A DNA stretch of 64,000 bases from Polytrichum commune. Its lineage: Eukaryota > Streptophyta > Polytrichopsida > Polytrichales > Polytrichaceae. A model generated the notes under the pieces. That model was not told the origin of the DNA and did not search any database. It worked only from the letters and a program-made list of their open reading frames with translations. Position numbers and translations under genes: made by a program. The stretch is from the NCBI GenBank assembly GCA_950295325.1, contig OX485804.1:67310033-67374032 (forward strand), read 5' to 3'. Shown here in pieces: positions 12,368 through 43,725 of the stretch. Each line of letters opens with the position of its first letter. Within the stretch, counting starts at the first letter, position 1.

Positions 12368-12991
12368 GCATCCTATACTTCTTTATTTATAGGCTATGTG
12401 TTACTAGATTAAATATCAAAGGCCCCAATTAAGTCCAACGAACAAGGATAATCAACTGCTAATTACAAATGAACCAGTTGAAGTTCAAGACTACATGAAA
12501 ATGACGAATCGTTTTAGAGGAATTTGTGAAATATACCTCAACTTAGTATAGAAAAAAAATTGAAAAATCACAACACGTAACGGTTTGGACTTGGAGACAC
12601 TAAGGTTTGGACTGATTATGCCCAAAAGTCAACCGGGACAGTGATTTACTCTTGACTCTTGATAAAGTCATTTGGAATGACACGGCCAAAACCCTGTAAG
12701 TTGTAAGGAGTCAGATTTTTATGTTGGATGGATGAGAGATATACTCGAGTCTTTAATGATTCCCGCTCTTCTTAAATAATTAGGACATTATTCTCAAGAG
12801 TACCTTGCAATTTATACGTTGACTATGATTTGATGAGGTCACTGAACGAGTTTTTAGAGTCTAATAGGTAAACCTTAGCCTCACATTTAAGTGTACTTAT
12901 TGTACTTAGCTAGTACGGAAATGTAGTTTTAACTAACTTCAGGTAGTTCATGGCATTAAAAGTGGTCCATATTGTGGGCGAGAGTCCACAG

Positions 12992-13651
12992 CTATGTTCG
13001 GGGAAAACCGACGGCTAGTTCATTATCAGCCGATGGATTTCCCCTCATGGCCAGTCCAAATTTCCAACCATTGGATGGCAATCCGACTGTAATTTCAATC
13101 CTTCGGCAATTAGCCGATGGACCAAAAAATGTCCCGGAAATGTAGCCGATTCTTCTTGTGAGTTACTGGATTTCAGCCGGAAGCATCCAGAGCGCTATTT
13201 GTCTGGGGCATCCGATGATGCACTTGAGGAAGTACCCTAAACCTTAAACTTTTTGAATTATGCAACCTTTCCATGACCAAATCCAAATGCTTCTATGAAG
13301 AATTGGGGGACCCTTGGCCTTCAAGCGGTGAAGGCATTGCTAGGTTCAATTCCTGCCAAGGATATTAACTCTTCAAATTTAAAGTTTTGAACATGCCTTT
13401 CTTTTCACTTATTCAAGATTTTGTACTAAGAAATGATTTCTAATAAATTTTCATACATTTTTTAAACAATTAGTGCCAATATGAATTCCATTTAATCGGA
13501 TATTGGCCAATGAAAATATGAAAATATAGGCAATTGGACGATTGATTTTACAAAAGACCGGCTCTTGCCGATGTAAATTGGAAAAAATCCGACCCTTCGT
13601 AGCAACTACCGGCAATTAGCCACAAAGGCTTCAAAAACTTCCCGAACTCTG
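12992..13651 (+). mobile_element. Non-autonomous hAT-type MITE, copy 2
   Basis: This is the same family and orientation as the element at 448-1096, at 660 bp. The extra length is an 11-base insertion (GCCTTTCTTTT) at about 13395. Its own 8-bp direct repeat GTCCACAG lies at 12984-12991 and 13652-13659. The two copies differ by scattered substitutions only, so both are fairly recent. Confidence 0.85.
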
Positions 13652-13881
13652 GTCCACAGGGAAGTCTTACATTAGCACCTCTGATCCATTTGAAAAGGAT
13701 TTGGGGGAACCAACCCATACACTCGTTCCTTGTTGGATGCCTAAACCCTTGCCTCCAAGGAACCAGTCTATAGGTTGTTTCGTCCTAGCTTTTGAAAAGC
13801 ATGTCCCCTGAAAATTTGTGGTTAATAGAGTTAATCATGAAGTAAAGCAAATGAAACCATGGGTTTGGTTTTAAACTCTGA

Positions 13882-20770: not shown

Positions 20771-20896
20771 TACTTTGGTGAGCTCACTTCTCCCCCCCAA
20801 GATGGAAGAGGAGGCCGGCGAGCAAGAAGCTGAGTGGTGAAACAAAGGAGAGGCGAATCGGGGAATGAAAAGGAGCAGCCGCGTGGCGAAAGGGGT

Positions 20897-20940
20897 CCCT
20901 GGAAATGTAAGGGAGCCCGGGAAACGTAAGCGAGGCCTGG
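20897..20940 (+). repeat. 20-bp GC-rich minisatellite in the 5' LTR
   Basis: Units of the type CCTGGGAGCGTAAGCGAGGC stand head to tail. Two fewer units are present here than at 41390-41472 in the 3' LTR, which accounts for the 40-bp length difference between the LTRs. Confidence 0.8.
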
Positions 20941-21390
20941 GAACGCACGGGAACGAACAGGGAACGTAGGCGTACGAGGACGAAGAGCCGAGACCCCGGG
21001 AACGTGGGCGTACGAGCTGGCGAACGAGCCAGGCGGGTTTAAAGCCGAGCTGGCGGATGGGCAGACTGGTTACTAGTGAAGGCAACGGATCAACTACTGA
21101 GGGCCGGGTTTAGGGCCTATATATATATCCGGCCGAAATAGCTAGGTAAATGAGAATAGGACCATTTTGGAGAACCGAGGGGGCACGGCCCTATTCCCAT
21201 TTTACAACACATGTCAATTAGGTAGCTAGAAGATATGAAGAGATATGTAATTAGGATTTACATATTGGACTTTATAGATTTAAACTCTACGAATCAAAGA
21301 CATTTGAATTCGGCTATTATTAGATAACAGAGCTAAATTTAGCCGAAGTAACATTTACAAAAATCCTAGGAAAATATAGATTTGTAAGAC

Positions 21391-21398
21391 TATATAAA
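21391..21398 (+). promoter_or_regulatory. LTR promoter TATA box
   Basis: TATATAAA in the context GACTATATAAAGAGGCC suggests transcription starting about 25-35 bases downstream, near 21425. That would make the upstream part U3 and the hairpin array the start of the RNA leader. The promoter role is inferred from position and consensus. Confidence 0.65.
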
Positions 21399-21493
21399 GA
21401 GGCCAACTAGAGGGCCCTAATGCACTTCATTCGCATAAGAAGACTTTACATGAGTGTCCGAGCTCCCGAGTCTTGAGTCTTGAGTTCGCAATA

Positions 21494-21710
21494 GGCACCC
21501 GAGGTGCATTAGGAAATTCATAGGCACCCGTGGTGCATTAGAAGTTCTATAGGCACCCGTGGTGCATTAGGAGTTCTATAGGCACCCGTGGTGCATTAGG
21601 AACTCTATAGGCACCCGTGGTGCATTAGGAAACTTTAGATAGACAAACGGCACCCGCGGTGCAATAAGTTGTGTCTAGAGATCGCATTTGGCAACCACGG
21701 TGCGGTAAGG
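21494..21710 (+). repeat. Hairpin-forming 29-bp repeat array in the LTR leader
   Basis: Five units spaced exactly 29 bp (starts at 21494, 21523, 21552, 21581, 21610) and two looser ones (21649, 21690) share GGCACCCGTGGTGCATTAG. Each has an inverted pair GCACC/GGTGC around a 3-base loop. In the regular units the loop changes (CGA, CGT, CGC) but the stem does not, which argues for a folded RNA or a palindromic protein-binding site. The seventh unit is degenerate. The array sits about 70-280 bases after the inferred transcription start. Confidence 0.85.
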
Positions 21711-23190
21711 TATGAGGCGGCAATCAAAGAGCAACATACTCACATAGGCTTAGGCCATTGCCGAATTGTAAGACAAGCAAGGTTTTGGGAAAGAGACGAC
21801 CCGAGGACTTGCATGCGGCTCATTGGCCAAACACCATATAAAGGAACTCCGATAAATACTTTGTGAAATTCATATAAGGAGAAGTAAATCGCGTGCGACA
21901 AACTTGAGGTTATTTCATAGCAACTTGGATTACGCATGCAATACGGTGAAATCGCCCACACTTGGCAAGAGGTTGAGGCAAGAGAATCTAAGTACATCAA
22001 ATCACCTAGGTAGTGCTCATTGATGGAAAAGGTAATGATGCCTCAAGCCGAAGCTTGACACCTTAGCATAAGTTCACATCATTACCTCTCACGCCATTGG
22101 ATTTGAGGCACCTAGATTAGTTTGCTTGAGAGGACTTGATAAGACTAATCAAATCATAAAGCAAGCAAAGGATTGGAACCAAAGGAGGCCAAGTTGTGGC
22201 CTCGTCATCAAAATCTCCTACCTTAGCACTTAGGGATTTTGGCGGCCTAAGAGAATATTCTGGGAATTTAGCCGGCCTTAGCCAAATATTGGGAATCTTC
22301 TAAGGAGTAGCAATTATGTGCTAAGCCTTAGAGATTTGGCTCGAGAGCATACACTTATAATTTACGGAATGTAAAAGGGATTTTAATTATGTCAACATAT
22401 CTTCCGCGAGCTAGGTGGACTTAGCGAGGGAATATGCTACCTTATGAGGGTATTTAGGCGACGTGTTTGAAGACTTGAATGGAATAGAGATTATGGCATT
22501 GGAATTTAAAGGAATGAATAAGGATTCTATATAGGATTACAAATCGAGATGATATAAATTCAAAACATGAAAGATATTGTAGGTAGGGGAATATAGATGG
22601 TTTCAAAATACGAGAGTTATAAACTTGAAATATGTTTTAGATGAATTCAACCATGAAAGATATTGTATGAGGATATTTCTCTCGGGGAAAACACTTCACC
22701 TTGACATTACACGTTTGAGAAACATTAACTTAAGGTCTAAGGTACCTATCCATTTAAGAGACTATTTAAAAGAAGCTACATATATACTGAGAGTATTGTG
22801 GAAGTGTTCTCGTTAAGGGCACTTTCGGGGAACATAAACTTGACAACTTGGACACTTTATCCCTAGGGATTTATCAAAGGGGTCTTGAACACAATATTCT
22901 TGGTTAAGAAAAGTATTGTGTTACTAAATCTATTTAAAGGTTTAGGAACACCAAACCTTGACATTAGATTCAGGGAAACATAAACTTGTAATCTTAGACC
23001 AACTACTCCTAGAGAATTTATAAGAACATTGAAACTATATGTTACGGATTGAGACACCGAAGAATGCAAACACCTTCACGAGACTTAGAGAGAAGATCTA
23101 ATTTTGGTGGGAGTAACTTCCATGTAAACCGGTTTAGCAACGGGTTACACCGTCTGAGGCTGGATGGTTGAAGGTGGCCCTCCAACATTT

Positions 23191-24412: not shown

Positions 24413-27400
24413 TTGATAATAGGTACCCCTCTTGGGACCTATGTTCTAAGAACAAAAGGTACAGGTAAAAGCACCGGTACGCATACCCCGGTAAGTGGGG
24501 CGCAGGATAAAGGTAAGGCTCATCACGGAAACACGAACAAGGAAGACCCTCTCAACCACAGGACTTGGGAAGAGTTAAAAAGAAATTTTGAGACACAATT
24601 TAGCTACGAGGATTCCGGCTTCTCCGGAGGAAGCACACAGAACAACACGGACCAAGAAGCAAAGAAACCTATCAGTCAAGAGGAGTTTGACGAACTTAGG
24701 AGGAAGTTTGAGGAGAGACTCATGCAATTCCAAAACCTTGGAAATAACCCCGGAGTCAGCCCGCCACCAGCCAACAACAACACAGTACCAAGTTTTGGAA
24801 ACAACCCATCTAACCCGGCCAACATGGCCGCTCAACCACGGAGAACGAAGGTTCCCTTACCGACCTATAAGGGTAAGACTGATCCTGATACGTATATGCA
24901 GGAGTTTAACAATGTTTGTCTTGCCAACCAGGAAGACACCGACGCAATCAAGCTACAATTATTCCCAGTTACCTTGAAGAAGCGGGCACTAGAATGGTAT
25001 TCTCAATTTGGCCCACACCATTTTCCAGATTGGGCCTCCTTGGGAGCTGCCTTTCTGATGAGATTTAGATCCAAGAAGTCCGAGGGAGAAGTGATTGAGA
25101 GTCTAGGATCCCTCAAGCAAAAGAAAGATGAAACTGTTGAAGAATTTTACGAACGGGTGATGGTGGAATCATCAAAGATCAATCCACAGCCCAGTGATCA
25201 TTTCAAGAAGGCATGGTTTCTTAACGGCCTCAAAAAGAAATACGCCAAGCATATTGATCTCATGCCAACTGATGACTTAGAAGAAGCGAAGGCCTCAGCT
25301 CGGAAATTGGAGCTAGGTCAAATGAGGAAGGGAAGATTCCTCGATGAAAGTGACAGCGACGACTCGGAAGAAGAGCGCAAGAAGAAGAAGAGGAAGTCAA
25401 AGGGTAAGAGAAACGACTCTACCAAAGACGACATAAAGACCCTTAGGGAAGAGATTGAAGGACTAGCTCTAGGGAGCAGGAAATTTCGAACAGGCATCAT
25501 TTGCCGGAGATGCCGAAATGAAGGACACTACGTGCAGGAGTGTCAAATGAAGCAGTGCACCAACTGCAACAGCCTAACGCATAACACAAGTGAATGTGTC
25601 TATGAACGGCACGAATCTCGGAGACCTCGGGAGAGGAGATATGGGGTAAATCAAGTGCAACCCCAAACTAATCGAAGGCCAGGAGCAATAACTCCTAGGC
25701 GAGACATGAATGATCGAAGGGTTCGGTTTGAACCAAGGACTGAGTTTAGAAGAGAAGAAAGATCCCCTTATGGGGAAGGCGATTACCGGCGGGAGGCGGG
25801 AGGCCCCTACCGGGGAAATGAATATCGCAGAGATGATCGGCCTTATTACAGGCCCAATGACAGCTACAAGGATGAATTCAGAAGGGAAGGCTATTTCCCT
25901 TACAAAACCCAAGATTTCCGGAGGGAAGATGGATACCCCTACCGAGGAGGCCCCAGAGGACCTATCAACCATGACAGGTATGAGTATACCAGAAGCCTGA
26001 TGGATAGTAACAACACCAAGGCAGCGCCGAGAACTGGGTTCACTGGCGGACCACAGCGAGAAGGCAACCCCGACGAGTGTTTTTATTGTCATCAGAAGGG
26101 ACACCGGAAGCCGGACTGTCCGCACTTTATTAAACACCAACAGGAGTTGAGTGGATTTAGAAACACGAAACCGGCAGTAGGAGCCAATGTGGTGTCCCCT
26201 GCGGTTTGTGTGATGACGAGAGCCCAACGGGCTGCAGCCGAGGAAGGCAAGGAAGATAGTGAGAGCGACAACAGTGATGACGATGATGAATCGAGTAGTG
26301 GCAGCTCGGAGGAGCAAGAAGACCACCAAAAGAGAGAGGAGAACTCTGAAGACGAAAGGGATGACGCGTTCGAGGATAACGAGCGCAACAAAGTGATTGA
26401 GGAAAGGCCGATAGGAGCCAACAGTGAAGAATGGAAAGCGGATAGGGAAGTCCACCGGGAGGTGAGTAAGACTATCCATGAGATACAGGAGGAAGAGGAC
26501 GAAGCTCTACCCACGCCAGAGGAGTTCGCACCTTGGTACCCGGAAAAGGAAGAGGCAGAGAAGCCCGCAGAACGGAGCCCCGAGAAAGGAGGCGTCCCAA
26601 TAGCTACCCATGCAAGGGTAGATAAGATCTTGGAGAGTGTGATGAATCACACAAAAGCAAACATATCAATCGGACAGTTACTTGAGATAGCCCCTTATTG
26701 CAAGAAGCAAATAATGGCGGCATTAACACATGATGAGAAGTCAAAAGAACCGACGCAAATATACCAAGTCACGGCAAAAGCATTTGATGAAGAAATGCCC
26801 ATGATATCCGTGATTGTGAAAAATAGGCAGGTACCAAACGCCTTAATCGATGGTGGATCAGGAGTGAACATCATTACTGACACGTTAAGGAAGAAATTGG
26901 GACTCAAGAAGATAGAGCCCGCACCATTCACCATAAAAATGGCAGACCAAAGAAAGGTCATGCCCAAAGGAATTATCCGAGATGTACGCCTTGATGTTGG
27001 CAGAATTGTAATCCGGACGACACTCACAGTTATAGACATGGTGAGTACTGAAGACAGTTACTCCCTGTTATTGGGAAGACCTTGGTTGAAGGAGGCTCAA
27101 GCTCAACATGACTGGCCCCTCAACAAACTGACCTTGACCCAAGGAGGAAACAAGGTAGAGATAAGTACCCAGAGAACTCCAGCGCTATCACCTGCAAAGA
27201 GACCTTTGCATTGGGAAGATTACGACTGGGAGATGGGCCTATCGGATGAGGAAGAAGCCATAGTTTATGAGGCCTTCCCCGAACTACTCCCCATGGGAGA
27301 TTTCGATTTGAAAAGCTTGAGGAAGCTACAAGAACCAAGTTGCAATACAATGGAGATTGATATTATCGGAACACCTACACCACAGGGAGGTAAATCCGAG

Positions 27401-28903
27401 AAACCCCGGTCGAGGAAAGCAACCAAGAAAGAGCAGGAGGCTATGGAGGAGAAACCCGTATACCCCTCTCAGTTTTACAAAACAAAAGAAGGAGACATAA
27501 TAGTGGACCGTACCCCTGCTGCAGAAGCTGTCAAGGGGAAGAAAATAGCCGGATGGACGGTCGAAGATGAAGACTTGGTAAAAAACTTGAACTTAGGTAC
27601 TCCGGAGGATCCTAAGTTGGTCAAGATAGCCAAGGATTTAGGTGACTATGAAGCACAAGTGAAGGAACTACTTTTGAGATTTAAGGACGTATTCGCATTC
27701 ACATACAAAGATATGAAAGGAATACCTCCGCACATATGCGAGCACAGGATCGAGTTGCAGCCTGAGGCCAAGCCTGTAAGGCAAATGCGCTATAGAATGA
27801 ATCCCAATTATGCCGCCAAAGTCAAGGAAGAAATCGACAAATACTTGGAGGCAGGATTTATATACCCTGTTGACAAAACGGAATGGTTATCACCAATTGT
27901 GATTGTGCCCAAGAAGAATGGAAAACTACGAGTGTGCGTCGACTACCGCAAACTCAACGCAGTCACCAAGGTAGATCCTTTTCCTCTACCTTTCACAGAA
28001 TCAATTTTGGAAGCGGTTGCAGGACAAGAAATGTACACGTTAATGGACGGGTACAGCGGCTACAACCAAATCATGATCGCGCTGGAAGACCAACTGAAAA
28101 CCTTTTTCATCACCGAGTATGGAGCATTTGCATACCGAGTGATGCCCTTTGGATTGATATGTGCACCAGCCACCTTCCAAAGGGGTATGATGAAAATCTT
28201 TGCCGATTACCTCGACAAATTTATGAAGGTCTTTCTGGACGACTTTACCGTATATGGCACCAAGGAAGACCATATTGAGCACTTGGAGAAGTGTCTCATT
28301 AAATGCCGCAAACATGGAGTGAGCTTGAACCCGGAGAAATGTTATTTCTGTGTAAATTCCGGGAGGCTCCTTGGACATGTGGTGTGCAAGGAAGGGTTAT
28401 TGGTGGACCCTAAGAAAGTGGGAGTCATAAAAGAACTACCCCCACCAACCACAGTACGGGGAATCCGGAGTTTCTTGGGACAAGCCACTTACCATCGCAA
28501 ATTTATATGGATGTATGCGGATATCACTCGGCCTTTGTACTTATTGCTCAAGAAAGGAAAAAAATACATTCGGACCAAACCTTGTCAAGAGGCCTTTGAA
28601 GAGGTAAAAAGGAGGCTCACGACTACACCCATTCTTATAACCCCTAATTGGACTATGGATTTTCACGTACACTGTGACGCGTCCAACATAGCTATTGGAG
28701 CCGTTTTGGCCCAAAACATACATGGAGATAGAGATTTTCCGATTCATTATGCAAGCCGACTGTTGAACAGTGCTGAGAAGAACTACAACACAACGGAGCG
28801 CGAAGCTCTAGCAATGGTTTATTCAGTGGGCAAATTTAGGCACTATTTACTGGCCAACCATTTTGTCTTCTACGTGGACCATCAAGCGTTGATAGACCAG
28901 TAG
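24413..28903 (+). CDS. Gag-protease-reverse transcriptase-RNase H polyprotein (1496 codons)
   Basis: The domains run in order. A Retrotrans_gag capsid domain covers about residues 145-300. Two CX2CX4HX4C zinc knuckles (CRRC..., CTNC...) lie near residues 364-395. An Arg/Tyr/Pro repeat region (RRE...PYRG) is at about 435-510, a third knuckle (CFYCHQKGHRKPDC) near 550, and an acidic stretch at about 615-660. The aspartic protease has ALIDGGSG near 812. The RT has FLDDF at about 1274, and RNase H has HVHCDAS near 1420 and EREALAM near 1460. The frame ends just after DHQAL, where an indel shifts the frame before the RNase H tail. The start is the first Met of the open frame; the true start may lie upstream in the decayed ORF. 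Proteins would form virus-like particles and make cDNA. Confidence 0.9.
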   Translation: MIIGTPLGTYVLRTKGTGKSTGTHTPVSGAQDKGKAHHGNTNKEDPLNHRTWEELKRNFETQFSYEDSGFSGGSTQNNTDQEAKKPISQEEFDELRRKFEERLMQFQNLGNNPGVSPPPANNNTVPSFGNNPSNPANMAAQPRRTKVPLPTYKGKTDPDTYMQEFNNVCLANQEDTDAIKLQLFPVTLKKRALEWYSQFGPHHFPDWASLGAAFLMRFRSKKSEGEVIESLGSLKQKKDETVEEFYERVMVESSKINPQPSDHFKKAWFLNGLKKKYAKHIDLMPTDDLEEAKASARKLELGQMRKGRFLDESDSDDSEEERKKKKRKSKGKRNDSTKDDIKTLREEIEGLALGSRKFRTGIICRRCRNEGHYVQECQMKQCTNCNSLTHNTSECVYERHESRRPRERRYGVNQVQPQTNRRPGAITPRRDMNDRRVRFEPRTEFRREERSPYGEGDYRREAGGPYRGNEYRRDDRPYYRPNDSYKDEFRREGYFPYKTQDFRREDGYPYRGGPRGPINHDRYEYTRSLMDSNNTKAAPRTGFTGGPQREGNPDECFYCHQKGHRKPDCPHFIKHQQELSGFRNTKPAVGANVVSPAVCVMTRAQRAAAEEGKEDSESDNSDDDDESSSGSSEEQEDHQKREENSEDERDDAFEDNERNKVIEERPIGANSEEWKADREVHREVSKTIHEIQEEEDEALPTPEEFAPWYPEKEEAEKPAERSPEKGGVPIATHARVDKILESVMNHTKANISIGQLLEIAPYCKKQIMAALTHDEKSKEPTQIYQVTAKAFDEEMPMISVIVKNRQVPNALIDGGSGVNIITDTLRKKLGLKKIEPAPFTIKMADQRKVMPKGIIRDVRLDVGRIVIRTTLTVIDMVSTEDSYSLLLGRPWLKEAQAQHDWPLNKLTLTQGGNKVEISTQRTPALSPAKRPLHWEDYDWEMGLSDEEEAIVYEAFPELLPMGDFDLKSLRKLQEPSCNTMEIDIIGTPTPQGGKSEKPRSRKATKKEQEAMEEKPVYPSQFYKTKEGDIIVDRTPAAEAVKGKKIAGWTVEDEDLVKNLNLGTPEDPKLVKIAKDLGDYEAQVKELLLRFKDVFAFTYKDMKGIPPHICEHRIELQPEAKPVRQMRYRMNPNYAAKVKEEIDKYLEAGFIYPVDKTEWLSPIVIVPKKNGKLRVCVDYRKLNAVTKVDPFPLPFTESILEAVAGQEMYTLMDGYSGYNQIMIALEDQLKTFFITEYGAFAYRVMPFGLICAPATFQRGMMKIFADYLDKFMKVFLDDFTVYGTKEDHIEHLEKCLIKCRKHGVSLNPEKCYFCVNSGRLLGHVVCKEGLLVDPKKVGVIKELPPPTTVRGIRSFLGQATYHRKFIWMYADITRPLYLLLKKGKKYIRTKPCQEAFEEVKRRLTTTPILITPNWTMDFHVHCDASNIAIGAVLAQNIHGDRDFPIHYASRLLNSAEKNYNTTEREALAMVYSVGKFRHYLLANHFVFYVDHQALIDQ

Positions 28904-29237
28904 ACCAGTAGTATCCGGGCGTATTGCGAGATGGATGCTTTTGTTTCAAGAATACGACTTTGAAGTGATCTACAAACCCGGTAGAAGCCATGTCATGGCC
29001 GACCACTTATCAAGAATCGAAAGTGGAGAAGAACCCTCAGGGGTGCAAGATCAATTCCCGGATGCGAGTTTATTCATGGTACATGTGCAACCTTTCGAAG
29101 ATTGGCGAGCACCATTTATCGAGTACCTTACACACGGAAAACTATTATCCGCACTCGCTACCCCGGAAGAACAGACAAAAATTAGACAACTGAGTGAACC
29201 ATTCGTTCTGGACGATGAAAAGCTTATGCGGGTTGTA
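28904..29237 (+). pseudogene. RNase H tail, linker and start of zinc module 1
   Basis: In the frame shifted relative to gag-pol, the sequence resumes with the conserved end of RNase H (RIARWMLLFQEYDF), then ADHLSR, then the first DWRAPFIEYL block (29100 on). A local TAGACCAG duplication and apparent loss of a few codons mark the break at about 28890-28915. The reading is cut at 29237 by a 2.7-kb insertion, and module 1 resumes at 31933. The 139-codon open frame from 28935 continues to 29354 only by running into the insertion. Confidence 0.8.
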
Positions 29238-31926
29238 GATAGGTTTTTAGATTGGGTTCCAATTAAGAAAACCACACAGGGAAGACCAAATGAGTGTCAG
29301 GTGTTGCATCTAGGGATCACCATTGAGTTAATTGATAGATTACAAGAGAATTAGGATGTATTTAGGACAACAAACACAGAGAAGAAGACTTCTAGAGCGA
29401 GTTTTAGGATTGATTCAATTAAGGTTGAAGATCACTCACAGCAGTACATGCAATTGATCAGTCACTCCCTCACAACCCACTCTCATCAGTAACATCACTC
29501 TTATAATGTGTTTTGCAATTCAGGGAGTCACAGCTCAGCAATTGTCATTTGGTGACGCCATAGTCTTAGAAAACCCAAGGCATGAACTCCTTGAGTGAAC
29601 CATAGTCTCTTCAGTAAAGTAACCAAGTACCAAAAGGCCACACCACAATTAGTAAGGATATCATGTTCACACTTGACTCCTCCTATGGTTAAGTGATTGA
29701 TTTAATTAGATAAAGACCACAGAAATGAATTATTTCCTTAGTCAATTTTAGACTTAACACTTTCACAGTGGAATTGAATGCATTAAAATAAATTATTAAA
29801 ATTAACAAAAGTCTAACGTGTGACAGTAATCTGGTGACCGAGTCTAAGCGAAGCGAACTGAACCGGACCGGGACCGTAAGAGTCTAATCGGTAGGACCAT
29901 AGTCTGCACGGCACGGCCATAGTCTAGTCACCAGTAACAGTCACAAGTAACCAGTATCAAGTCACGTCTCATAGAGAGGGCCATAGTCTTAGTATCCAGT
30001 AACCAGTAACAAGTAGCCAGTCACCAGTAACCAAGTCAACGTCAAGTTCTCGAAGGTGATACTGGCCACTCCTCCTTTTATGCTTGCCCTATTAGCCTCA
30101 CCCAAACCATATGGGTTAATGGGCGGCTTAGTTCTCGCTCACGGCTTCTTCCTCGGGATCAGCCGCGTCGGCTCCGTCAGCAGACTCCACTCGCACGCGG
30201 CACCTTCTTCTTCTTCGCCAGGCGCATCATTCCTTTCACATGCAATCTTCTCCTTGTGAAATTGAACTGATCCTTCGTCTCCACGTTTCTACCAGTGCAC
30301 TCTTAGAGAATTCATGGAACTAATTCCAAAGTTCCACTAGCTCACATCGAGAACTATCCTCATTAGTAGAAAAAGAGGACCATCACAGTCACTTTCTTGC
30401 TTCTCAAACTGCAATCCACCTTCATCGGGGAGAATCACTCGTCCGGTGGCATTCGATCGTTCTCCGATAAGGTGCTTTATTCATATGTTGATGAACGAAC
30501 CAAGGTAACAATCTGCCACCCTTTTTTCTGCGAAGGGGAGACTAACAGGAGATTGTTTCCCTCTCCTTTTCGGTGCAAGATCATAGTTTGAACGAATTAA
30601 TTCTCACAGACTTTTCAATCTCTCTTCACAGAAGTTAGATCTCAACGTGCGCACTAATCGAAATTTCAGATTGGGTGGGAAGTTGGTGCTTAAGCATTTG
30701 TTCTAACTTCACATCAGATAGCTCGAGATTGCCACAGCCAAATCACATGGCCGAACACACCCAGAGAGAATTAACTTCACACTCACAAGATTCATTCACT
30801 TCACTACCAAGGGAGACGATACACCACTCGATATTACTTCTCACCGTGCTCATAAGATTAAGGGTAGTTACATCACCCCTTTCACAGGAGAAATCCACCG
30901 CACCATCATACTCAAACTCAAACAGATATCAGAATTCTATATCTGAGGTTCTCTCAGACTGATTCTGCAAGACCACTTCAATGGGTGGACAATTATTCTC
31001 GACTAAAGTAGGTGTTCACACTTCTGAAACCTACGAATATGTTGCAACATCAACTGCAGTAGCACGGTGACAGCATCTCCCTCTGACATTCTATGTACCA
31101 GACAGAGGGACACTTACAAACTATACCAATTTACTTTGACAGGATTCGAGACACAGTCCGTGTATCTTCTCAAACAAACTCCTTTCACCGGATTACATTG
31201 TTAAAGCACTTCCTCGTACTTAGATACATTCACAACACGACTTATTACAACTAGAGGCTTTCAGGACAATTCATGGAATTCCATTCACTCCAATGAACCC
31301 GGAAGGATCTCTTCCTTCTCAGAAGAGACTCAACATTCCCACAAGCAATTCCTCTCAATTCCCTTGAGAGAAACAACCACACCTCAAGACTCACTCCCTT
31401 CACAAGAATAAGGTATCACAAATTCAATCTGGATTCTTCCCGAACCAGGAAAGTACGATTTTGGTGTAAACGATTCACGACCAGCACCAACACAACATAT
31501 TTAATCCTCACACACACAAGTAATAATATAACTTCACGCTTATGATATTATGCAAAGTAAAATGTACATTCAAAAAGGCTTCACACCCAAGCCAGACTCG
31601 CTCAAAAACTAAAAGACGAGGGAGACTCTCTTCTCGGGAGGAACTACTTTCTCCTCTCTTTCTTCTCCTCTATATCCCCTGAACTAGCTTCCTTGCCTCT
31701 TGGGGCCAGATTTCATAAGTCTCTTCGACTTGGTCACATGTCTATTGCCCTGCCCAAAAGACTCTTCCTCTTGGAAACTGTTTCATATGAACTAAATGTC
31801 TCACCCTTAGCTCATTTCGGATAATTGGTCACTAATGACTTACTTTAGTGTCCATTTCACATTTTGAGTGTCGATATGAATTCATATCCTATCAAAATCC
31901 TAAAATGACTATTTTGAGACCAAAAA
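29238..31926. mobile_element. 2.69-kb insertion splitting zinc module 1
   Basis: The integrase-linker homology stops at 29237 and restarts at 31933. GTTGTA stands on both sides (29232-29237, 31927-31932) and may be a target duplication. The inserted sequence has no open frame that I recognise and no clear terminal inverted repeat or LTR. Its last bases are A-rich (GACCAAAAA), which would also fit a retroposed sequence. The middle has many TCTC/CACA-rich stretches and AGTCT/ACCAGTAA repeats at 29825-30050. The class is unknown. Confidence 0.65.
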
Positions 31927-33719
31927 GTTGTACCACACGGGTCAGTATCTCCGGCAAAATACATGAATGCATAGCCGGGGACATCATCGAAGAAATTATA
32001 AGTGAGGCTCATAAACAAGACGGAGTGCATTACAATCTGTCTACTACGTGGCACTATGTATTACGCGCACCTTATTGGTGGCCTACACGGCGAAGGGACG
32101 TACTGGAGTATTGCGATGAATGCCCAGTATGTAAGATGTCAGACAAAGGTGACGTAACTAGGGACATCACCCCATATGACTCCGAAGACGACGATGACCC
32201 ACTTCCTGTCAAACCTTTGGAGGCACAAGGGGACATGAATGGGAAAGCGGAACCAGATTGGACAACTCCCTATGTCCAATATCTAACCTGTCAAATGTAC
32301 GGGACCCCATGGGTGAGTTCCCTACCCCTAGAGGAAAGGAGATTGCTTGCTTACCGCAGTCGATTCTTCATACTCAAGGAAGGGGAATTACATCGCATGT
32401 TTCACAACGGCATCATAAAGAAATGTATACCTGGAAGGTATGTGAGGAGTTACATCAAGACCCTCCATATAAAGGAGAATCGGCATTTCTCGATAAACGC
32501 CACCAGGCAACTGGTGCTGCAAGGCCCTTATTGGTGGCCAACCATAGCGGAGGATGTTTCACTACTCATCACGCTATGCACTGAATGTGAAGGACAGGGG
32601 GAAGAGTTACCAACGGAAGGAAGCTCTTCACAACCTAGTAATGAGACGGACATGATACCGTACAAAGAAACCTTCAATGATTGGAGAACACCCCTGGTTG
32701 AATACATGGCACGGGGGAAGTTCAAGATGGACACAGAGACTCAAAGACGGCAACGAGAGCTCATACGAGAGAGTGAGATCTTCACATTGGAGAAAGGAAA
32801 ACTCCGGAAATTAGAGAAAAACGGAATGGCCAAGATATGCATTGCGGATTACCAAATAAAGCGTTGGATAGGAAAAATGCATGTATATCGACGAGCACAC
32901 CTGAACGACCAACACACCTGGCTACGATGTTTACAAGGGAACCGGTGGTGGCCCACGATGGGGCTAAGTGATATACAATTCTACATTGAGTATGATTGTC
33001 GATCCTGTCGAGAGCAATTTACAGGCCCATACCATAACATAATTTGCGGGTCCATTGCCGCACAACCACAGGACAACAAGGATTGGAGGAGATTATTGAT
33101 AGAATACCTCACCTACAGGTACCTTAAGGGGCCCCACATCTCGAAAGGACAACACAAGAAGATTGCCCGCCAGAGCTGGGAATACTTCATCGAAGAAGGC
33201 AAATTGAAAAGAATACTATCAAATGGTGAAATCAAGATATGTATTGCCGGACATGAGGTAAACAAATACCTACAAGAACTACATGTCACGGACACAGGAG
33301 AGCATCTTAGCATGGAAACCACATGGCACCTGTCCATGTTTGGGCCATATTGGTGGCCCACATGCGGGTCCGACATCAAGAACTTATGCAACGAGAAATG
33401 CCCGGTTTGCAGCAACCAAGTCGGGCTTGCAACAGAAAAGGAAACACAAACACTTCTAGGTGAGAAGAGCCTAGATTGGAGACGTCCATATTTGGAGTAC
33501 CTGACATGCAGAAAAATCTTTGACCAAGCCTTACCACTAGAGGTGAGGAGAGCGGTGGAGCAAAGCCATAAGCATTTTGTGTTCACCAACGGTACTTTGC
33601 AACGGATACGCAAAGGAGGGAAGAGTAACCAAACGTGTATACCAGAGACTCGAGTACCCGCGTACTTAGCTAAGATTCATGGACAAAGCATGCCCCATTT
33701 GGCAGCCATAGAAACCTAG
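31848..33719 (+). pseudogene. Integrase-region ORF part A: zinc modules 1-5
   Basis: This 623-codon open frame starts inside the insertion (its first ~28 codons are not element sequence) and runs through the second half of module 1, all of modules 2-4 and half of module 5, ending at TAG 33717. The same frame continues beyond the stop with module 5's WWPT and CDSC, so the stop is a single nonsense change, not the protein's end. Spacers between modules are acidic or Ser/Gln-rich. The presumed role is nucleic acid or integrase-multimer contacts, by analogy with the single zinc domain of retroviral-type integrases. No function has been shown for extra copies. Confidence 0.8.
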
Positions 33720-34148
33720 AAGGCCGTAGCCACCGGGGCGTATTGGTGGCCAACGTGGGGACATGACGTATGCAACTACCTAAAGCACTGTGATAGTTGT
33801 AGAGGAACAGAGAGCAAGACAAAACACCCCGAGGAAAGTCAAAGCGCGGCGCTCCCAGAAACAACATCCGAGCCGGATTGGAGGCACTCAGTCATACAAC
33901 GACTGGAAAGCTTTGAAGATTGGAACTTTATTGACACCCATGCAAATGTGGGATTACTTGACCCCAACGCTGAAATGTATTTCATAACCAAGGATGATTT
34001 GAAGTATCAATTACCCGATGGCGAAGTGAAAATGTGTATCACAAAAGGAGACGCCGTCGATTGGGTAAAGAGGGTACACGAATATCAAGTACCACACTTG
34101 ACTGCGAAAGAAACAACCGCTCAAGTGCACGAAGGCCCGTACTAGTGA
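33720..34148 (+). pseudogene. Integrase-region part B: rest of module 5 and most of module 6, between stops
   Basis: This in-frame stretch lies between TAG (33717-33719) and the TAG TGA pair (34143-34148). It holds AYWWPT and CDSC of module 5, then a more diverged DWR block and the two His of module 6. The stop pair sits exactly where the other modules have Trp-Trp followed by Pro-Thr, so it derives from TGG TGG. Confidence 0.8.
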
Positions 34149-34166
34149 CCAACTGTCTCTCTAGAC

Positions 34167-36506
34167 GTGCAACGTTTAGTTGACGAATGCCGGATATGTC
34201 AGCTCGGGACGACGTTAAGCTCTCAAACTGTGAAATATGGAGCCATCCCGGTCAGGAAAGGTGAAGCACAGGATTGGCGAGAACCAATTATACAACACCT
34301 CAAGCAACTGATGGAATTAAGCGAATTGGCATTCCAAGAGGAATTGGGGATATTGAAAGAGGAAATACCTGATTATTTCCTGGAAGAAGATATATTGAGC
34401 CGAAGGTTAAATGGAGACATCAAATTGTGTATATCCCAAGATGAGGGAATCAAATGGCTAACAACTATTCATCAACAGAGATCCCCACATCTCTCGATGG
34501 ATGAGATGATCTCGCGGGTCGCTTCAGGACCTTACTGGTGGCCTACGATACCGCCAGACATCGATCATCTCTGTAAGAACTGTGTGCATTGTCAGCCTCG
34601 AGAATCCCCAAAACATGTGATCGACTGCAGAACGATCACAAGCAAAGACAAGGAGGAACCCGATTGGAGAACTCCTTTCATTGATTATCTACGACATGGT
34701 CGATTAACCACGGAAGCGTCGACCACCCAACGACAACAAATAGCGATACGCAGTAGGCCGTATTGGTTGACCCACAATGGGACCTTGATCAAAGAAGGCC
34801 CTGATGGCTTACGGAGAATATGTGTGAATGGGCCAATAACTACTGCCATTATTGCTGAGGCTCATGAGGGAATTGCTGGAGGGCATTTCTCAGCCAACAT
34901 TACTCTACACAAGGTATTGACCACCTTGTATTGGTGGCCCACCATGAAAAGAGATGTTTATTTATATTGCACCCAATGCGATATTTGTCAAAGAGTTGGC
35001 CCCAAGATTTCAACCAACCTCCAACCCTTACATCCCACAATGCCCACTGAGGTATTTCAGAAATGGGGTTTGGATTTCATTGGACCAGTCAACCCTCCAG
35101 CTAAAGGTACCAAGAATCGGTGCATTATTACAGCAACTGACTACACCACCAAGTGGGTGGAAGCGAGAGCTTTGAAGGACAACACGGCTAAGTCGACAGC
35201 CAAGTTCCTCTTTGAGGAAATAATTACAAAGTTTGGATGCCCATTGGAGTTTGTGAGCGATCAAGGAAGTCATTTTATTAATGACACCATGAAAATACTT
35301 ACGCAAGAGTTCATGATTTTACATCGGAAATCCACCACGTATTACCCACAGGCTAACGGGCAAGCCGAAAGCACCAACAAGGTAATCAAGATCGCCTTGA
35401 CCAAAATGGTTAATGCCAATCGAACAGATTGGGACACCAAGTTGCATGCAACACTTTGGGCATATAGGACAGCCTATAAGGTGACAACAAAGCACACCCC
35501 ATTCTCTTTAGTGTTTGGGACAGAGGCTTTGCTACCGATGGCCTACCTACATCCTGACGTTCACCAACAAAGGAGCCAGGATATACATCCCATTCTTAAG
35601 AAAAGGATGGAACAACTCCAAATCATTGATTTAACCCGACATGAAGCGGAAGAAAACATGAGGCACATACAATTATTGCGCAAAGAAAGGCATGACCAAC
35701 CTCGGAAACGGACACATTGTAAGCAGTGTCACCACGGAACAAGCAAAACTTCCCAAAAGAAAGCCAAACGGCATGATACTTTGGAGGAAGGAATTATGCA
35801 AGACACGGATAAATCCAAGCACTCCCCAAGGAGTGAAGATCCCGAGCTACCAGCCGTACCCAAAATACGATTTTACCCCGGCCAAAGAATCTTGTGGCAC
35901 TTACGCCATAAAATACCCGGACCGGGCAAATTTAAAATACGTTGGGCAGGACCATACCTAATCAAGCAAGTTTACGACAACGGATCAGTGGAGGTTACCA
36001 CCCTCCAAGGGGACAGTTTGGGGCGAGTCAACATGAACAAACTTAAACCCTACCACGAACCGGAGACCACCCAAGCATATGCTTTACAGATTTTAGCATG
36101 TCGTATTTTGGAAGCAGAGATTAAGGAGAGACAAAATCAATTACCCAAAAGGAGTGGCATAACCCAATCCCCAACTACCCCATCTAAAGACAAGGTCATC
36201 CCGCACCCCGGATCTACCACTCCCCCAGATCAAGCAACCCTAGACGCAGAGGACTTAGAAATCCATAGAGTGATGTTAGAAGTATACGGGGCACAACCTT
36301 CCACACTCGAAGATGACAACCCCCAACACATGTGGGATGAAGAAACCAATTCACGGAGAGGGATTAATACCCCCGTAAACCACTTAAGGAACACCTTGGA
36401 AAATTTAAGACTTAGCCTAATAGAAACCCCTAAGAAAGATGCTAACACGACTTACCCCACCCCATTAGACTGGATAGAGGGGAAGACGGACCATTATCCT
36501 AAGTAA
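34167..36506 (+). CDS. Integrase: zinc modules 7-8, catalytic core and GPY/F tail (779 codons)
   Basis: The open frame begins inside module 6 (CRIC) and contains modules 7 (34272) and 8 (34662). The rve catalytic core follows, with GLDFIGP (about 35072), SDQG (about 35260) and QAES (about 35368) supplying the D-D-35-E triad. Then comes a basic region and a tail with RWAGPYLI...NMNKLKPYH (about 35940-36055), the GPY/F module. There is no chromodomain; the last ~150 residues are Pro/Thr-rich and unrecognised. The Met is only the first in frame after the stop pair. The core itself looks intact, but it cannot be made as part of the polyprotein in this copy. Confidence 0.87.
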   Translation: MQRLVDECRICQLGTTLSSQTVKYGAIPVRKGEAQDWREPIIQHLKQLMELSELAFQEELGILKEEIPDYFLEEDILSRRLNGDIKLCISQDEGIKWLTTIHQQRSPHLSMDEMISRVASGPYWWPTIPPDIDHLCKNCVHCQPRESPKHVIDCRTITSKDKEEPDWRTPFIDYLRHGRLTTEASTTQRQQIAIRSRPYWLTHNGTLIKEGPDGLRRICVNGPITTAIIAEAHEGIAGGHFSANITLHKVLTTLYWWPTMKRDVYLYCTQCDICQRVGPKISTNLQPLHPTMPTEVFQKWGLDFIGPVNPPAKGTKNRCIITATDYTTKWVEARALKDNTAKSTAKFLFEEIITKFGCPLEFVSDQGSHFINDTMKILTQEFMILHRKSTTYYPQANGQAESTNKVIKIALTKMVNANRTDWDTKLHATLWAYRTAYKVTTKHTPFSLVFGTEALLPMAYLHPDVHQQRSQDIHPILKKRMEQLQIIDLTRHEAEENMRHIQLLRKERHDQPRKRTHCKQCHHGTSKTSQKKAKRHDTLEEGIMQDTDKSKHSPRSEDPELPAVPKIRFYPGQRILWHLRHKIPGPGKFKIRWAGPYLIKQVYDNGSVEVTTLQGDSLGRVNMNKLKPYHEPETTQAYALQILACRILEAEIKERQNQLPKRSGITQSPTTPSKDKVIPHPGSTTPPDQATLDAEDLEIHRVMLEVYGAQPSTLEDDNPQHMWDEETNSRRGINTPVNHLRNTLENLRLSLIETPKKDANTTYPTPLDWIEGKTDHYPK

Positions 36507-38386: not shown

Positions 38387-41254
38387 ATGGAGTGCCCCCA
38401 TACCTTCCAACCAAAACTGGATAAGTTCAGAGAATCCTGGAAGGAAGTGCAGAGGAGCAGTCTACAAGCCTTCACCTATGTGCGTTGGAATCCAAGTGAG
38501 TCTCATTGGTATTTCCCAGCTTGTAAGTCTCACATTTTCCAAGCAGTGCTTAGAAGGGCATTAGCAGCAGGTGATTCTGAGTTCACAAAAATCATGAAGA
38601 GGGGGCCAGAGGCAGAGCAAAATGTTTTGTATGCCTTCAACATCGACCCAGCTCTGAAGTATCAACTAACCCCAGCAAAGAGAGATTTTCTCAAGAAGCT
38701 AAACTTGGAAGACTTCGTCACTTCCAACTCATGGGGCGTGCTACACCCCCAGTTGGTTACAGAGGCCATTGCAGCCCTGAAGACAACCACTTTCATAACA
38801 ACAGTGAAGGGAGAAAGTGTGCAGATCATTGCAGCAACTTGGAGAGAGCAATTCCAGCAAACATTTCACCTCACTCAAAAGAAACCACATCCGGTTACAA
38901 GGGAATGGCAACCCACTGAATTGTTTCCTTCACTGAAGGACAACCCTGAAGGGAAGGATACCGTGCACATATCAGATTGTCACTACCCAGGTGCAAGAAG
39001 ACCTCTGAGGCTCTTAAGCTCACTTTTCTGTCTCAACCCGACACACCAGAATCACATCACTCTCACATTCGTGGATATGGTAATAGCAGCACTCAACGGC
39101 CAGGAAGCAGATTGGCCACAGGAGTTTTATCAAGAGATTACAGAGGAACTTACAACCTTGCACAACAAGCATCAGGCTGATAAGGTAAAGGTGGAGAAGA
39201 CCTCCATTGGACCCCACATCACATTGATTCTTAGAGCAGCGGGCATCCTTAACATCCGAGAAGAACTAGAGGCTGGCTATAGGAGTGAGAAAGCTCTCAC
39301 TCTAGAGGAGCAGTTGCCCAACCCGAAGAAAACCAAGACCAAGCAGGCTAAAGGGGCATCAGAAGCACAAACCTCAGCCCCAGTACCATCAAACCAGCGG
39401 ACAGAAGCGGCCATAGACCCCGAACCACAACTGGTCACCCCAGTTTATTCGGTGATCCCACAGTCTGCCGAAACCAGCTCTGGAAGGCCAAGAAGAGTCG
39501 TCGTGGAGACCATGGAAAAGAGACAACCCCCAAACGAGCTGCCTGGGATGGTGGAGCAGATCTGCCAGGCACATCGCAGGTTAGAGAACTTATTATTTTC
39601 TTTCACTGCCAAGGCCCCACATGGATTAGTCAGTAAAATGAACAATGAGTTCCACAAAATTCAGAGGGAAGCCATACTCCGTGAGGGCATGGAAGGACCA
39701 CCCGAGCATGGCCCAGATGTGTTACTCAAATTTCAGGGCGTCCAACTTCAAAATCTGGCAAAGCAGCTAGATAATTCAGAAAGCCTCAACGAGGTAAACA
39801 TTGAGGCCATTTTCCAACTTCAAGAGGAAGTAAGCACATTCCAGCACAAATTGGCCCAGGCTGAAAAAGAAGTTCTAGCCTTGAAGGGCCAGAAAGGAGA
39901 TCAAACCCTGCTGGCAGACCAGGACAAGGAAATGACACGTTTAAAAATGGAGATTCAGGCTATCACTGATAGGGATAAGAAGGAGCTGAACACCTTACAA
40001 GAGAAATTAACACTAGCTGAGGAAGAGGTGTTAGGCTTGAAGGGCCAGAAAGGTGAAGCTTTTCACCAGATCGGCCAACTCAAAGAGCAACTGGTTGCTC
40101 ACGCTCAGAAATTGCGGGACAAGGAGGAAGAACTGACCGACCTCAACAATCACATTACATACCTGAACAGCGTTATGGTGAGGCAAGATGCCCTGGATGT
40201 CCGCAGGAAAGAAGAGATAGCTCGTCTCGAGGCCCAGGCAAGTACTAATCAACATGATAAAGCCCACCTCCAAACAAAAAATTTCAGGTTAAAAGCGGAG
40301 ATTTCAGCAGGTAAAGCGAAGACACACCTGTATTCATCTAGCAGCCACCCCGAATCGGATCGTACCTCAACCCACCCCATTATGGACAAGGAGAAACATA
40401 CCTTGGCAACCGGGATAGCAAATCAACTCCTCAATGAGCTAAGGGCAGATCTGGCTCGCACACAGCAAGAAAACACAGATTTAGCACAACAACTTATCAA
40501 GCAGCGAGAGGAGTCTGGGGAGGAGGCCATTCCTCACACGGCCATCCAACCCCGCACAGAGATCATTCAGCAAATTATGAAGCACACTGAGCCTCTGAAA
40601 TCCATAATGCAGTATCACAGAGCATTTGGAGGATTGAACCTCGTTCTCAATAATATTCCTTTATTGAAAACAGGGTGCAGTCTGGAACTGACCCAGGTAC
40701 AAGGGATCTGGAGCCATGCCAATGCTGCAGCCCGAGACACCCTAGTATTCATGTGGTGTTTAGGGGAGCTCAAGACACCTTTGGGTGTGATGGAGATGCT
40801 CACAGGCTCTCCCCCTTTCTATATAAGGAGATACATTTTGAGATGTATCAAACTTCTAGGTCAGCATCACAATCTGACCAGGGCACCCAGGGAACCACTC
40901 CCTACACTGAAATCCTATTCTCATGGCCAGTACTACCAGATCAAGAAGGCCCAACAATGCGGGATCGATTGCTTCAACCGGGCCCTGGCTACCCTAGCCG
41001 CGGAAGACACCAGAGTTTGCTTCAAGGCCGTCCAGCAGTACCAAGAGCTCATCAACAAACACCCCAGCCCGGCCCTGCAACCAACTTTGAGCGAGCTGAA
41101 GAATTTTGTCGATGGGGCTCTCGAAACTCAGCAGACGACCTTAACCACCAGGAAATTTGGCGTCATCAACAGTGGCACATTGTTGTTTCGCCCCAGATCA
41201 CATGCAATTGATCAGAAAGGCGGACAGCAAAGCATGGGGACATGCTTTCTCTGA
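38387..41254 (+). CDS. Extra retrotransposon ORF3: 955-aa coiled-coil protein of unknown function
   Basis: This is an uninterrupted 955-codon frame on the sense strand between integrase and the 3' LTR. It ends at TGA 41252-41254, which already overlaps the polypurine tract. The N-terminal ~310 residues look globular (FVTSNSWGVLHPQLVTEAI, LFCLNPTHQNH) and faintly recall the putative plant transposon protein domain of other plant elements. A Pro/Thr/Gln-rich linker follows. Residues ~430-690 are a long coiled coil with a ~50-residue internal repeat (EKEVLALKGQKG and EEEVLGLKGQKG). The C-terminal ~180 residues are again globular. There is no signal peptide or membrane segment, so it does not resemble an envelope. 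It is intact while the integrase frame is broken. Function unknown; a structural or trafficking role is a guess. Confidence 0.85.
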   Translation: MECPHTFQPKLDKFRESWKEVQRSSLQAFTYVRWNPSESHWYFPACKSHIFQAVLRRALAAGDSEFTKIMKRGPEAEQNVLYAFNIDPALKYQLTPAKRDFLKKLNLEDFVTSNSWGVLHPQLVTEAIAALKTTTFITTVKGESVQIIAATWREQFQQTFHLTQKKPHPVTREWQPTELFPSLKDNPEGKDTVHISDCHYPGARRPLRLLSSLFCLNPTHQNHITLTFVDMVIAALNGQEADWPQEFYQEITEELTTLHNKHQADKVKVEKTSIGPHITLILRAAGILNIREELEAGYRSEKALTLEEQLPNPKKTKTKQAKGASEAQTSAPVPSNQRTEAAIDPEPQLVTPVYSVIPQSAETSSGRPRRVVVETMEKRQPPNELPGMVEQICQAHRRLENLLFSFTAKAPHGLVSKMNNEFHKIQREAILREGMEGPPEHGPDVLLKFQGVQLQNLAKQLDNSESLNEVNIEAIFQLQEEVSTFQHKLAQAEKEVLALKGQKGDQTLLADQDKEMTRLKMEIQAITDRDKKELNTLQEKLTLAEEEVLGLKGQKGEAFHQIGQLKEQLVAHAQKLRDKEEELTDLNNHITYLNSVMVRQDALDVRRKEEIARLEAQASTNQHDKAHLQTKNFRLKAEISAGKAKTHLYSSSSHPESDRTSTHPIMDKEKHTLATGIANQLLNELRADLARTQQENTDLAQQLIKQREESGEEAIPHTAIQPRTEIIQQIMKHTEPLKSIMQYHRAFGGLNLVLNNIPLLKTGCSLELTQVQGIWSHANAAARDTLVFMWCLGELKTPLGVMEMLTGSPPFYIRRYILRCIKLLGQHHNLTRAPREPLPTLKSYSHGQYYQIKKAQQCGIDCFNRALATLAAEDTRVCFKAVQQYQELINKHPSPALQPTLSELKNFVDGALETQQTTLTTRKFGVINSGTLLFRPRSHAIDQKGGQQSMGTCFL

Positions 41255-41264: not shown

Positions 41265-41923
41265 TAAATGGTGAGCTCACTTCTCCCCCCCAAGATGGAA
41301 GAGGAGGCCGGCGAGCAAGAAGCCGAGCGGTGAAACAAAGGAGAGGCGAATCGGGGAATGAAAAGGAGCAACCGCGTGGCGAAAGGGGTCCCTGGAAATG
41401 TAAGGGAGCCCTGGGAGCGTAAGGGAGACCCTGGAAGCGTAAGCGAGGCCCTGGGAGCGTAAGCGAGGCCCGGGAACGCACGGGAACGAACAGGGAACGT
41501 AGGCGTACGAGGACGAAGAGCCGAGACCCCGGGAACGTGGGCGTACGAGCTGGCGAACGAGCCAGGCGGGTTTAAAGCCGAGCTGGCGGATGGGCAGACT
41601 GGTTACTAGTGAAGGCAACGGATCAACTACTGAGGGCCGGGTTTAGGGCCTATATATATATCCGGCCGAAATAGCTAGGTAAATGAGAATAGGACCATTT
41701 TGGAGAACCGAGGGGGCACGGCCCTATTCCCATTTTACAACACATGTCAATTAGGTAGCTAGAAGATATGAAGAGATATGTAATTAGGATTTACATATTG
41801 GACTTTATAGATTTAAACTCTACGAATCAAAGACATTTGAATTCGGCTATTATTAGATAACAGAGCTAAATTTAGCCGAAGTAACATTTACAAAAATCCT
41901 AGGAAAATATAGATTTGTAAGAC

Positions 41924-41931
41924 TATATAAA
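41924..41931 (+). promoter_or_regulatory. TATA box of the 3' LTR
   Basis: TATATAAA at the position equivalent to 21391. It could in principle drive transcription out into the 43.7-kb flank. Confidence 0.55.
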
Positions 41932-42026
41932 GAGGCCAACTAGAGGGCCCTAATGCACTTCATTCGCATAAGAAGACTTTACATGAGTGTCCGAGCTCCC
42001 GAGTCTTGAGTCTTGAGTTCGCAATA

Positions 42027-42243
42027 GGCACCCGAGGTGCATTAGGAAATTCATAGGCACCCGTGGTGCATTAGAAGTTCTATAGGCACCCGTGGTGCAT
42101 TAGGAGTTCTATAGGCACCCGTGGTGCATTAGGAACTCTATAGGCACCCGTGGTGCATTAGGAAACTTTAGATAGACAAACGGCACCCGCGGTGCAATAA
42201 GTTGTGTCTAGAGATCGCATTTGGCAACCACGGTGCGGTAAGG
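42027..42243 (+). repeat. Hairpin-forming 29-bp repeat array, 3' LTR copy
   Basis: The same units and spacing as at 21494-21710, with no differences seen. Confidence 0.85.
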
Positions 42244-43725
42244 TATGAGGCGGCAATCAAAGAGCAACATACTCACATAGGCTTAGGCCATTGCCGAATT
42301 GTAAGACAAGCAAGGTTTTGGGAAAGAGACGACCCGAGGACTTGCATGCGGCTCATTGGCCAAACACCATATAAAGGAACTCCGATAAATACTTTGTGAA
42401 ATTCATATAAGGAGAAGTAAATCGCGTGCGACAAACTTGAGGTTATTTCATAGCAACTTGGATTACGCATGCAATACGGTGAAATCGCCCACACTTGGCA
42501 AGAGGTTGAGGCAAGAGAATCTAAGTACATCAAATCACCTAGGTAGTGCTCATTGATGGAAAAGGTAATGATGCCTCAAGCCGAAGCTTGACACCTTAGC
42601 ATAAGTTCACATCATTACCTCTCACGCCATTGGATTTGAGGCACCTAGATTAGTTTGCTTGAGAGGACTTGATAAGACTAATCAAATCATAAAGCAAGCA
42701 AAGGATTGGAACCAAAGGAGGCCAAGTTGTGGCCTCGTCATCAAAATCTCCTACCTTAGCACTTAGGGATTTTGGCGGCCTAAGAGAATATTCTGGGAAT
42801 TTAGCCGGCCTTAGCCAAATATTGGGAATCTTCTAAGGAGTAGCAATTATGTGCTAAGCCTTAGAGATTTGGCTCGAGAGCATACACTTATAATTTACGG
42901 AATGTAAAAGGGATTTTAATTATGTCAACATATCTTCCGCGAGCTAGGTGGACTTAGCGAGGGAATATGCTACCTTATGAGGGTATTTAGGCGACGTGTT
43001 TGAAGACTTGAATGGAATAGAGATTATGGCATTGGAATTTAAAGGAATGAATAAGGATTCTATATAGGATTACAAATCGAGATGATATAAATTCAAAACA
43101 TGAAAGATATTGTAGGTAGGGGAATATAGATGGTTTCAAAATACGAGAGTTATAAACTTGAAATATGTTTTAGATGAATTCAACCATGAAAGATATTGTA
43201 TGAGGATATTTCTCTCGGGGAAAACACTTCACCTTGACATTACACGTTTGAGAAACATTAACTTAAGGTCTAAGGTACCTATCCATTTAAGAGACTATTT
43301 AAAAGAAGCTACATATATACTGAGAGTATTGTGGAAGTGTTCTCGTTAAGGGCACTTTCGGGGAACATAAACTTGACAACTTGGACACTTTATCCCTAGG
43401 GATTTATCAAAGGGGTCTTGAACACAATATTCTTGGTTAAGAAAAGTATTGTGTTACTAAATCTATTTAAAGGTTTAGGAACACCAAACCTTGACATTAG
43501 ATTCAGGGAAACATAAACTTGTAATCTTAGACCAACTACTCCTAGAGAATTTATAAGAACATTGAAACTATATGTTACGGATTGAGACACCGAAGAATGC
43601 AAACACCTTCACGAGACTTAGAGAGAAGATCTAATTTTGGTGGGAGTAACTTCCATGTAAACCGGTTTAGCAACGGGTTACACCGTCTGAGGCTGGATGG
43701 TTGAAGGTGGCCCTCCAACATACTT

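Follow-up and report, generated by a model that had tools for sequence, protein, structure and literature searches.

Why integrase complexes comprise 4 to 16 subunits is a matter of debate, and much of the difference in subunit number lies in which subunits supply the outer N-terminal domains (NTDs). In known intasomes the NTDs reach over to partner subunits and to the cDNA ends. The integrase of prototype foamy virus (PFV) has one unit per chain formed by the NTD extension domain (NED) and the NTD, further units being provided by further subunits. Here we describe a 64,000-nucleotide stretch of the Polytrichum commune genome (assembly GCA_950295325.1, contig OX485804.1, positions 67,310,033 to 67,374,032 of the forward strand), called the window below. 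It contains one 22.9-kb Ty3/gypsy element in which RNase H and the integrase core are separated by an array of eight modules of the integrase NTD type. This array, found with five, eight or eleven modules in elements of the same genome, points to an apparently undescribed way of building an integrase.

The module array and its copies

The preliminary description of this sequence had proposed eight tandem DW[R/T]...HHCC...WWPT modules with a period of about 130-140 codons, ending at 34997. All eight are present on the forward strand (+) from 29100 to 34979, the terminal one finishing inside that limit. With the first coordinate of each marking its DW start, they are module 1, split into a first part with the DWR segment (29100-29233) and a second with the HHCC part (31943-32123), module 2 (32256-32588), module 3 (32679-33008), module 4 (33081-33410), module 5 (33474-33800, with a TAG at 33717), module 6 (33876-34199, its Trp-Trp codons reading TAG TGA at 34143-34148), module 7 (34272-34583) and module 8 (34662-34979). 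Module 8 groups with single-module integrases and is the integrase's own NTD. Modules 2-8 are spaced 130-141 codons apart, as the noted period would have it, and the step from module 1 to module 2 measures 149 codons when an insert and its 5-bp duplication are discounted.

The modules have in common D-W, a Cys in xCI, H-x5/6-H, WWPT and C-x2-C, and are only 20-37% identical pairwise (module 1 being taken from the relative P0003), the strong divergence that had been remarked on. Of six window pieces scanned, three match Pfam PF17921 (Integrase_H2C2), and 10 of the 11 modules of a sister copy match it individually (E up to 1). The HHCC and WWPT signature together with PF17921 identifies an integrase N-terminal zinc domain, M6 of one clade lacking it, and the Pfam matches rule out a random resemblance. 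Module profiles match residues 30-106 of PFV integrase (E 7e-07 to 3e-06), a segment that we take to span the NED end and the NTD, and match Ty3 integrase weakly (0.015 and 0.054). In what follows M1-M8 denote the eight-module array, E1-E3 three extra modules of 11-module copies and F1-F5 the modules of a 5-module sister family.

The 407.8 Mb genome, in which the window lies on contig 2, was searched with the M1b-M5a query. The survey covers this one genome, its counts are lower bounds and the query favours copies with M1-M5. It gave at least 98 matches, 28 of them (window included) near-full with 65-100% protein identity; 19 of these 28 are stop-free in the matched stretch and nine have one or two stops. 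The best 30 loci carry eight modules in 20 cases (at three of these loci one module is in two pieces), eleven in seven and ten in L034, whose first module is cut by the locus edge, while L011 and L029 are truncated. Three loci (L035-L037) have E1-E3 followed by M4-M8. Stop-free array matches lie in open frames of 3,652 (L015), 3,716 (L033), 3,306 (L016) and 3,264 (L022) codons, and for three of them (3,652, 3,716 and 3,264 codons) the integrase tail is matched at that place too, in an equally long frame. No twelfth module is found in the 2.9 kb upstream of the first module in L015, where about 970 codons are open. The two loci read from the sister family (L040, L041) have five modules each, and further matches at about 30-54% identity look, judged from the search matches, like the 5-module family.

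Eight is thus not a fixed number, since 5, 8 and 11 modules are seen. Nor are the other family members single-module elements, the situation in which the array would have been a peculiarity of this locus: they carry eight modules or more. The same genome is rich in single-module relatives, 65 of the 76 matches to P0019 starting near its second module and all six P0019-related loci that were read having one module each. An assembly error or other local artefact is ruled out by the 27 further near-full matches elsewhere and by the database proteins with at least two modules (25 of 32). Two of these matches, L022 and L023, are identical at a distance of 17 kb; the array stretches of L022 and L024 are 99.8% identical on different contigs, which points to recent movement of array-bearing elements.

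A protein search with modules 1b-5a returned 13 proteins and two more searches added relatives, giving an array-family set of 32 proteins (P0001-P0015 and P0129-P0145; sources ena, jgi and lgn). The seven of them without a second module are one-module fragments. When compared to own-genome loci, not all copies being in the comparison, these proteins are 62-93% identical at best, which suggests that at least some of them stem from another genome. The module scan was extended to 128 proteins (the best 120 of 1,712 matches plus those of the M1b-M5a search). Plant-named proteins among these 128 have mostly one module, some none, and never more than two; two matches occur in Adiantum P0056, in Prunus P0033, where they are separated by about 900 residues, and in Malus P0038, where one is partial. 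Two DWR-HHCC modules precede the core in P0016, P0018, P0019, P0022, P0023, P0024, P0055, P0090 and Adiantum P0056. An aspartyl-protease-like stretch follows the integrase in the two-module and fern elements P0018 (by Pfam), P0055 and P0061 (both by eye). No relative was found in the viral contig collection.

Two diverged jgi proteins, P0143 and P0145, run in frame from module 7 directly into the integrase C-terminal tail, without module 8 and the core, at an identical junction point. Such a core-less junction was recognised in none of 73 own-genome matches; the candidate at C4:42271317 was rejected as an integrase-tail fragment without any module.

Selection, zinc ligands and history of the modules

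Selection was measured by pairwise Nei-Gojobori ratios of nonsynonymous to synonymous substitution rates (dN/dS) in 23 of the 30 loci, after removal of seven closely similar copies. Stop-containing or partially covered modules were excluded, as were pairs with a proportion of synonymous differences (pS) below 0.05 or above 0.7; the pairs are non-independent and dS is near saturation for some. Median dN/dS is 0.098 for M1, 0.172 for M2, 0.135 for M3, 0.137 for M4, 0.172 for M5, 0.179 for M6, 0.162 for M7 and 0.048 for M8, and 0.131, 0.085 and 0.163 for E1, E2 and E3, respectively. These medians are far below 1 across modules 1-7, where values near 1 had been named as the mark of a neutral array. 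The highest kept pair has 0.85 (in M2), no kept pair reaches 1, and the upper limits of all codon-bootstrap intervals are below 0.28. As baselines, the end of the reverse transcriptase (RT) and RNase H give 0.031 (9 of 15 loci tried, 20 pairs, six loci with stops or a shifted frame being dropped), and the start of the core, taken as the 56-74 codons directly following M8, gives 0.028 (18 of 22 loci tried). The linkers average 16-41 codons in length, and six of the ten measured are loose, with medians of 0.43-0.64 from M3-M4 to M7-M8 and 0.67 for E2-E3. The modules are therefore under purifying selection as protein beads, many of them on looser linkers.

The preliminary description had all modules keeping both His and both Cys. 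This holds for the eight modules of the window and breaks down in the family, where M6 in 7 of 23 copies and F3 depart from it. Ligands are kept at 695 of 702 covered sites in E1-E3, M1-M5, M7 and M8. M6 retains 63 of 77, with H to Y and H to P replacements in seven copies from a single clade. These counts take aligned letters alone, and the last Cys of M6 has no letter in 8 of 22 copies, so that loss in M6 is undercounted. F3 has no CxxC in either of the two loci read. Nearly all modules, zinc-less M6 included, also retain a fifth Cys, which belongs to the xCI motif and precedes the first His by about 14 residues.

In module trees (FastTree, 113-114 columns, with modest deep supports) E1-E3, M1-M7 and F1-F4 form one clade (0.999), apart from M8, F5 and the single modules. 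M1-M8 cluster by position across copies and database relatives, an indication that the array is old. Together with median dN/dS of 0.085-0.18 in every extra module, these positional clades agree with the amplification long ago, kept under selection, that had been suggested. F1 groups with M1 and E1 (0.896), F4 is sister to M6 and M7 (0.962) and F5 goes with M8 (0.721). In the 5-module family, at L040, the counterparts of M1 and M8 are 55% and 76% identical to them, respectively.

E1-E3 match M1-M3 at 69, 65 and 58%, which argues that a three-module block was doubled to give them; E1 is nested in M1 in the protein tree and is a clade of its own (0.999) in the DNA tree. Copies with 11 and 8 modules are intermixed in a tree of M4-M8 from 28 copies, indicating that the E1-E3 block was lost or gained more than once. 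The growth path can be read as leading from 1 to about 5, then 8 and then 11 modules. The first modules of two-module elements form a clade beside their second modules (0.913; the second tree prints no support), so that this doubling looks independent. In a tree of M8 plus core, every array protein that retains an intact core falls into a single clade (1.0), surrounded mostly by plant elements with one module; P0143 and P0145 lie outside it because they lack the part compared.

Taken together, the sequences show that the modules are homologues of the integrase NTD, sit within long open pol frames, arose stepwise within the lineage and mostly hold their positions.

Possible roles of the array

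We tentatively favour, just short of even confidence, that an arm of four, seven or ten NED-NTD-type modules before the integrase's own NTD acts in integrase assembly. This reading rests on the extra NED-NTD beads, many loosely linked, being joined directly to that NTD. The arm would work within the integrase, one chain giving the NTD contacts that others recruit from extra subunits. Beads might pack on each other, on the core, on the cDNA ends or on the target, and their packing would determine how stable the integration complex of so long an element is, or how far it reaches. The positions may be specialised, as M1 and M8 are best kept between families and net charge varies per bead. A stronger form, in which the array is a single-chain integration machine whose tandem NTDs replace recruited subunits and whose three-module blocks are added or dropped by recombination, is rather doubtful. 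If so, this integrase would be, to our knowledge, the first with its assembly state encoded in its own sequence.

Several observations weigh against an assembly arm. M1-M7 are about 3-6 times less constrained than the catalytic parts. The linkers are not uniformly loose, four of the ten measured being tighter (M1-M2 0.107, M2-M3 0.192, E3-M1 0.013 and E1-E2 0.309). The zinc site is dispensable in M6 of one clade, and CxxC in F3, so zinc is not needed by every bead. M6 has a dN/dS of 0.362 in the zinc-less clade (6 copies, 9 pairs), compared with 0.181 where the zinc site is present (12 copies, 62 pairs); this loosening is partly clade-wide, since M5 of the same copies also has 0.269 (M7 has 0.18). 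Close copies differ in having 8 or 11 modules, and a fixed stoichiometry is not needed. The core-less P0143 and P0145 could mean that the arm is used apart from catalysis, or could be defective derivatives only. Finally, the medians of net charge are mixed (M1 -10.5, M3 +8, M5 +5, M6 and M7 -6, M8 +4), a pattern that does not suggest that all modules touch DNA.

The same charges bear on the multivalent nucleic-acid arm suggested earlier. Modules not being uniformly basic, a plain arm of this type is not the obvious reading. In its fuller form the modules would bind the genomic RNA of about 20 kb or the cDNA lengthwise, packing or chaperoning it like a nucleocapsid, and integration would proceed via M8 only. 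The length of the element, the retention of zinc modules and the basic character of M3, M4, M5, E3, F2, F5 and M8 are consistent with such binding. The acidic M1, E1, F1, M6, M7 and F4 are not, gag already has a zinc-knuckle-like sequence, and modules that keep a positional identity are more suggestive of specific contacts than of bulk ones; we consider the proposal unlikely.

A lower probability is given to release by the protease, the linkers being cut and the modules acting singly, as small free zinc proteins, or jointly, as an array protein of their own. The length of the linkers, the loose constraint on six of them and the retention of array modules in the core-less proteins would suit this reading, which is countered by the constraint on linkers M1-M2, M2-M3 and E3-M1. 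That the array is a host or chromatin tether, its positions recognising several host factors to steer integration, would fit their specialisation and the unequal rates between them, and seems to us improbable. Neutral tandem amplification, to which the stops and insert of the window copy, the nine near-full matches with stops and several loose linkers might be ascribed, is scarcely credible: it is refuted by the dN/dS medians of all extra modules, unless the alignments are wrong, and is opposed by the 19 stop-free near-full matches and by a simulation of 487 codons evolving to 70% protein identity, which ignores the listing of open frames by databases and gave no stop-free run in 200.

The surrounding element and known systems

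The window element has the paired TG...CA long terminal repeats (LTRs), the target-site duplication and the RT-RNase H before integrase order of Ty3/gypsy elements. The 5' LTR (20776-23187, +) is preceded by the target-site duplication TACTT (20771-20775), which is repeated at 43721-43725 after the 3' LTR (41269-43720, +). A gag-pro-RT-RNase H open frame of 1,496 codons (24413-28903, +) matches Pfam Retrotrans_gag, RVT_1 and RT_RNaseH, its aspartyl protease match and the zf-CCHC_2 match of the gag zinc-knuckle-like sequence being below cut-off. The integrase catalytic core (rve, Pfam match) is at 35046-35348 (+). An extra open reading frame (ORF) of 955 codons (38387-41254, +), 3' of pol, has no Pfam match and is coiled-coil-looking by eye; P0064 and P0020 likewise extend far past the integrase.

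A 2,704-bp LTR-like insert (29234-31937) with a TG start, a CA end and a 5-bp duplication CGGGT interrupts module 1. The insert has no second copy within the window and is absent from P0003, where module 1 is continuous across the insert point. A small rearrangement read by eye, an 8-bp tandem repeat at 28893-28908 (+), puts the array in a different frame from RNase H. Because of the insert, the frame change and three in-frame stops (TAG at 33717, TAG at 34143 and TGA at 34146), the window copy is defective; an intact gag-pol is missing here, long open frames being found in other copies. The LTRs differ by 3 mismatches plus gaps in the aligned stretch, and their identity shows that the insertion is young. 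Part of the damage may therefore have been present before the copy moved, which would imply help in trans.

Elsewhere in the window a repeat pair (440-1104 and 12984-13658) with 96-97% identity, 12.5 kb apart, probably represents the LTRs of another element. Gene pieces at 52675-55676, judged by eye, resemble what we presume to be a plant 2-oxoglutarate oxygenase.

The array elements probably belong to a large Ty3/gypsy lineage of the Tat type; the added (archaeal-type) RNase H that marks most Tat branches is not found here. Passages on the land-plant Tat lineage in Neumann 2019 (PMC6317226) and in Biryukov and Ustyantsev 2023 (PMC10508981) mention no more than one zinc module, compared to 5, 8 and 11 here, and the words zinc and HHCC are absent from the main text of PMC6317226. 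No description of such an array was found in the open-licence literature, which is weak evidence of absence. Imagin (PMC12863088), an integrase-like host gene from a Ginger1 DNA transposon, seems to have an H2C2-type integrase domain in common with the array.

Plant elements with two modules resemble the array in having DWR-HHCC modules before the core and differ from it by their apparently independent doubling. The array further offers a clear example of how a domain array grows within a viral-type polyprotein. Likeness to the spumavirus NED-NTD lies in the match, at the level of sequence, of array module profiles to the PFV integrase segment. A natural series of 1, 2, 5, 8 and 11 NTDs per chain, with zinc-less variants and with selection measurable at each module position, would make the question of integrase subunit number directly testable.
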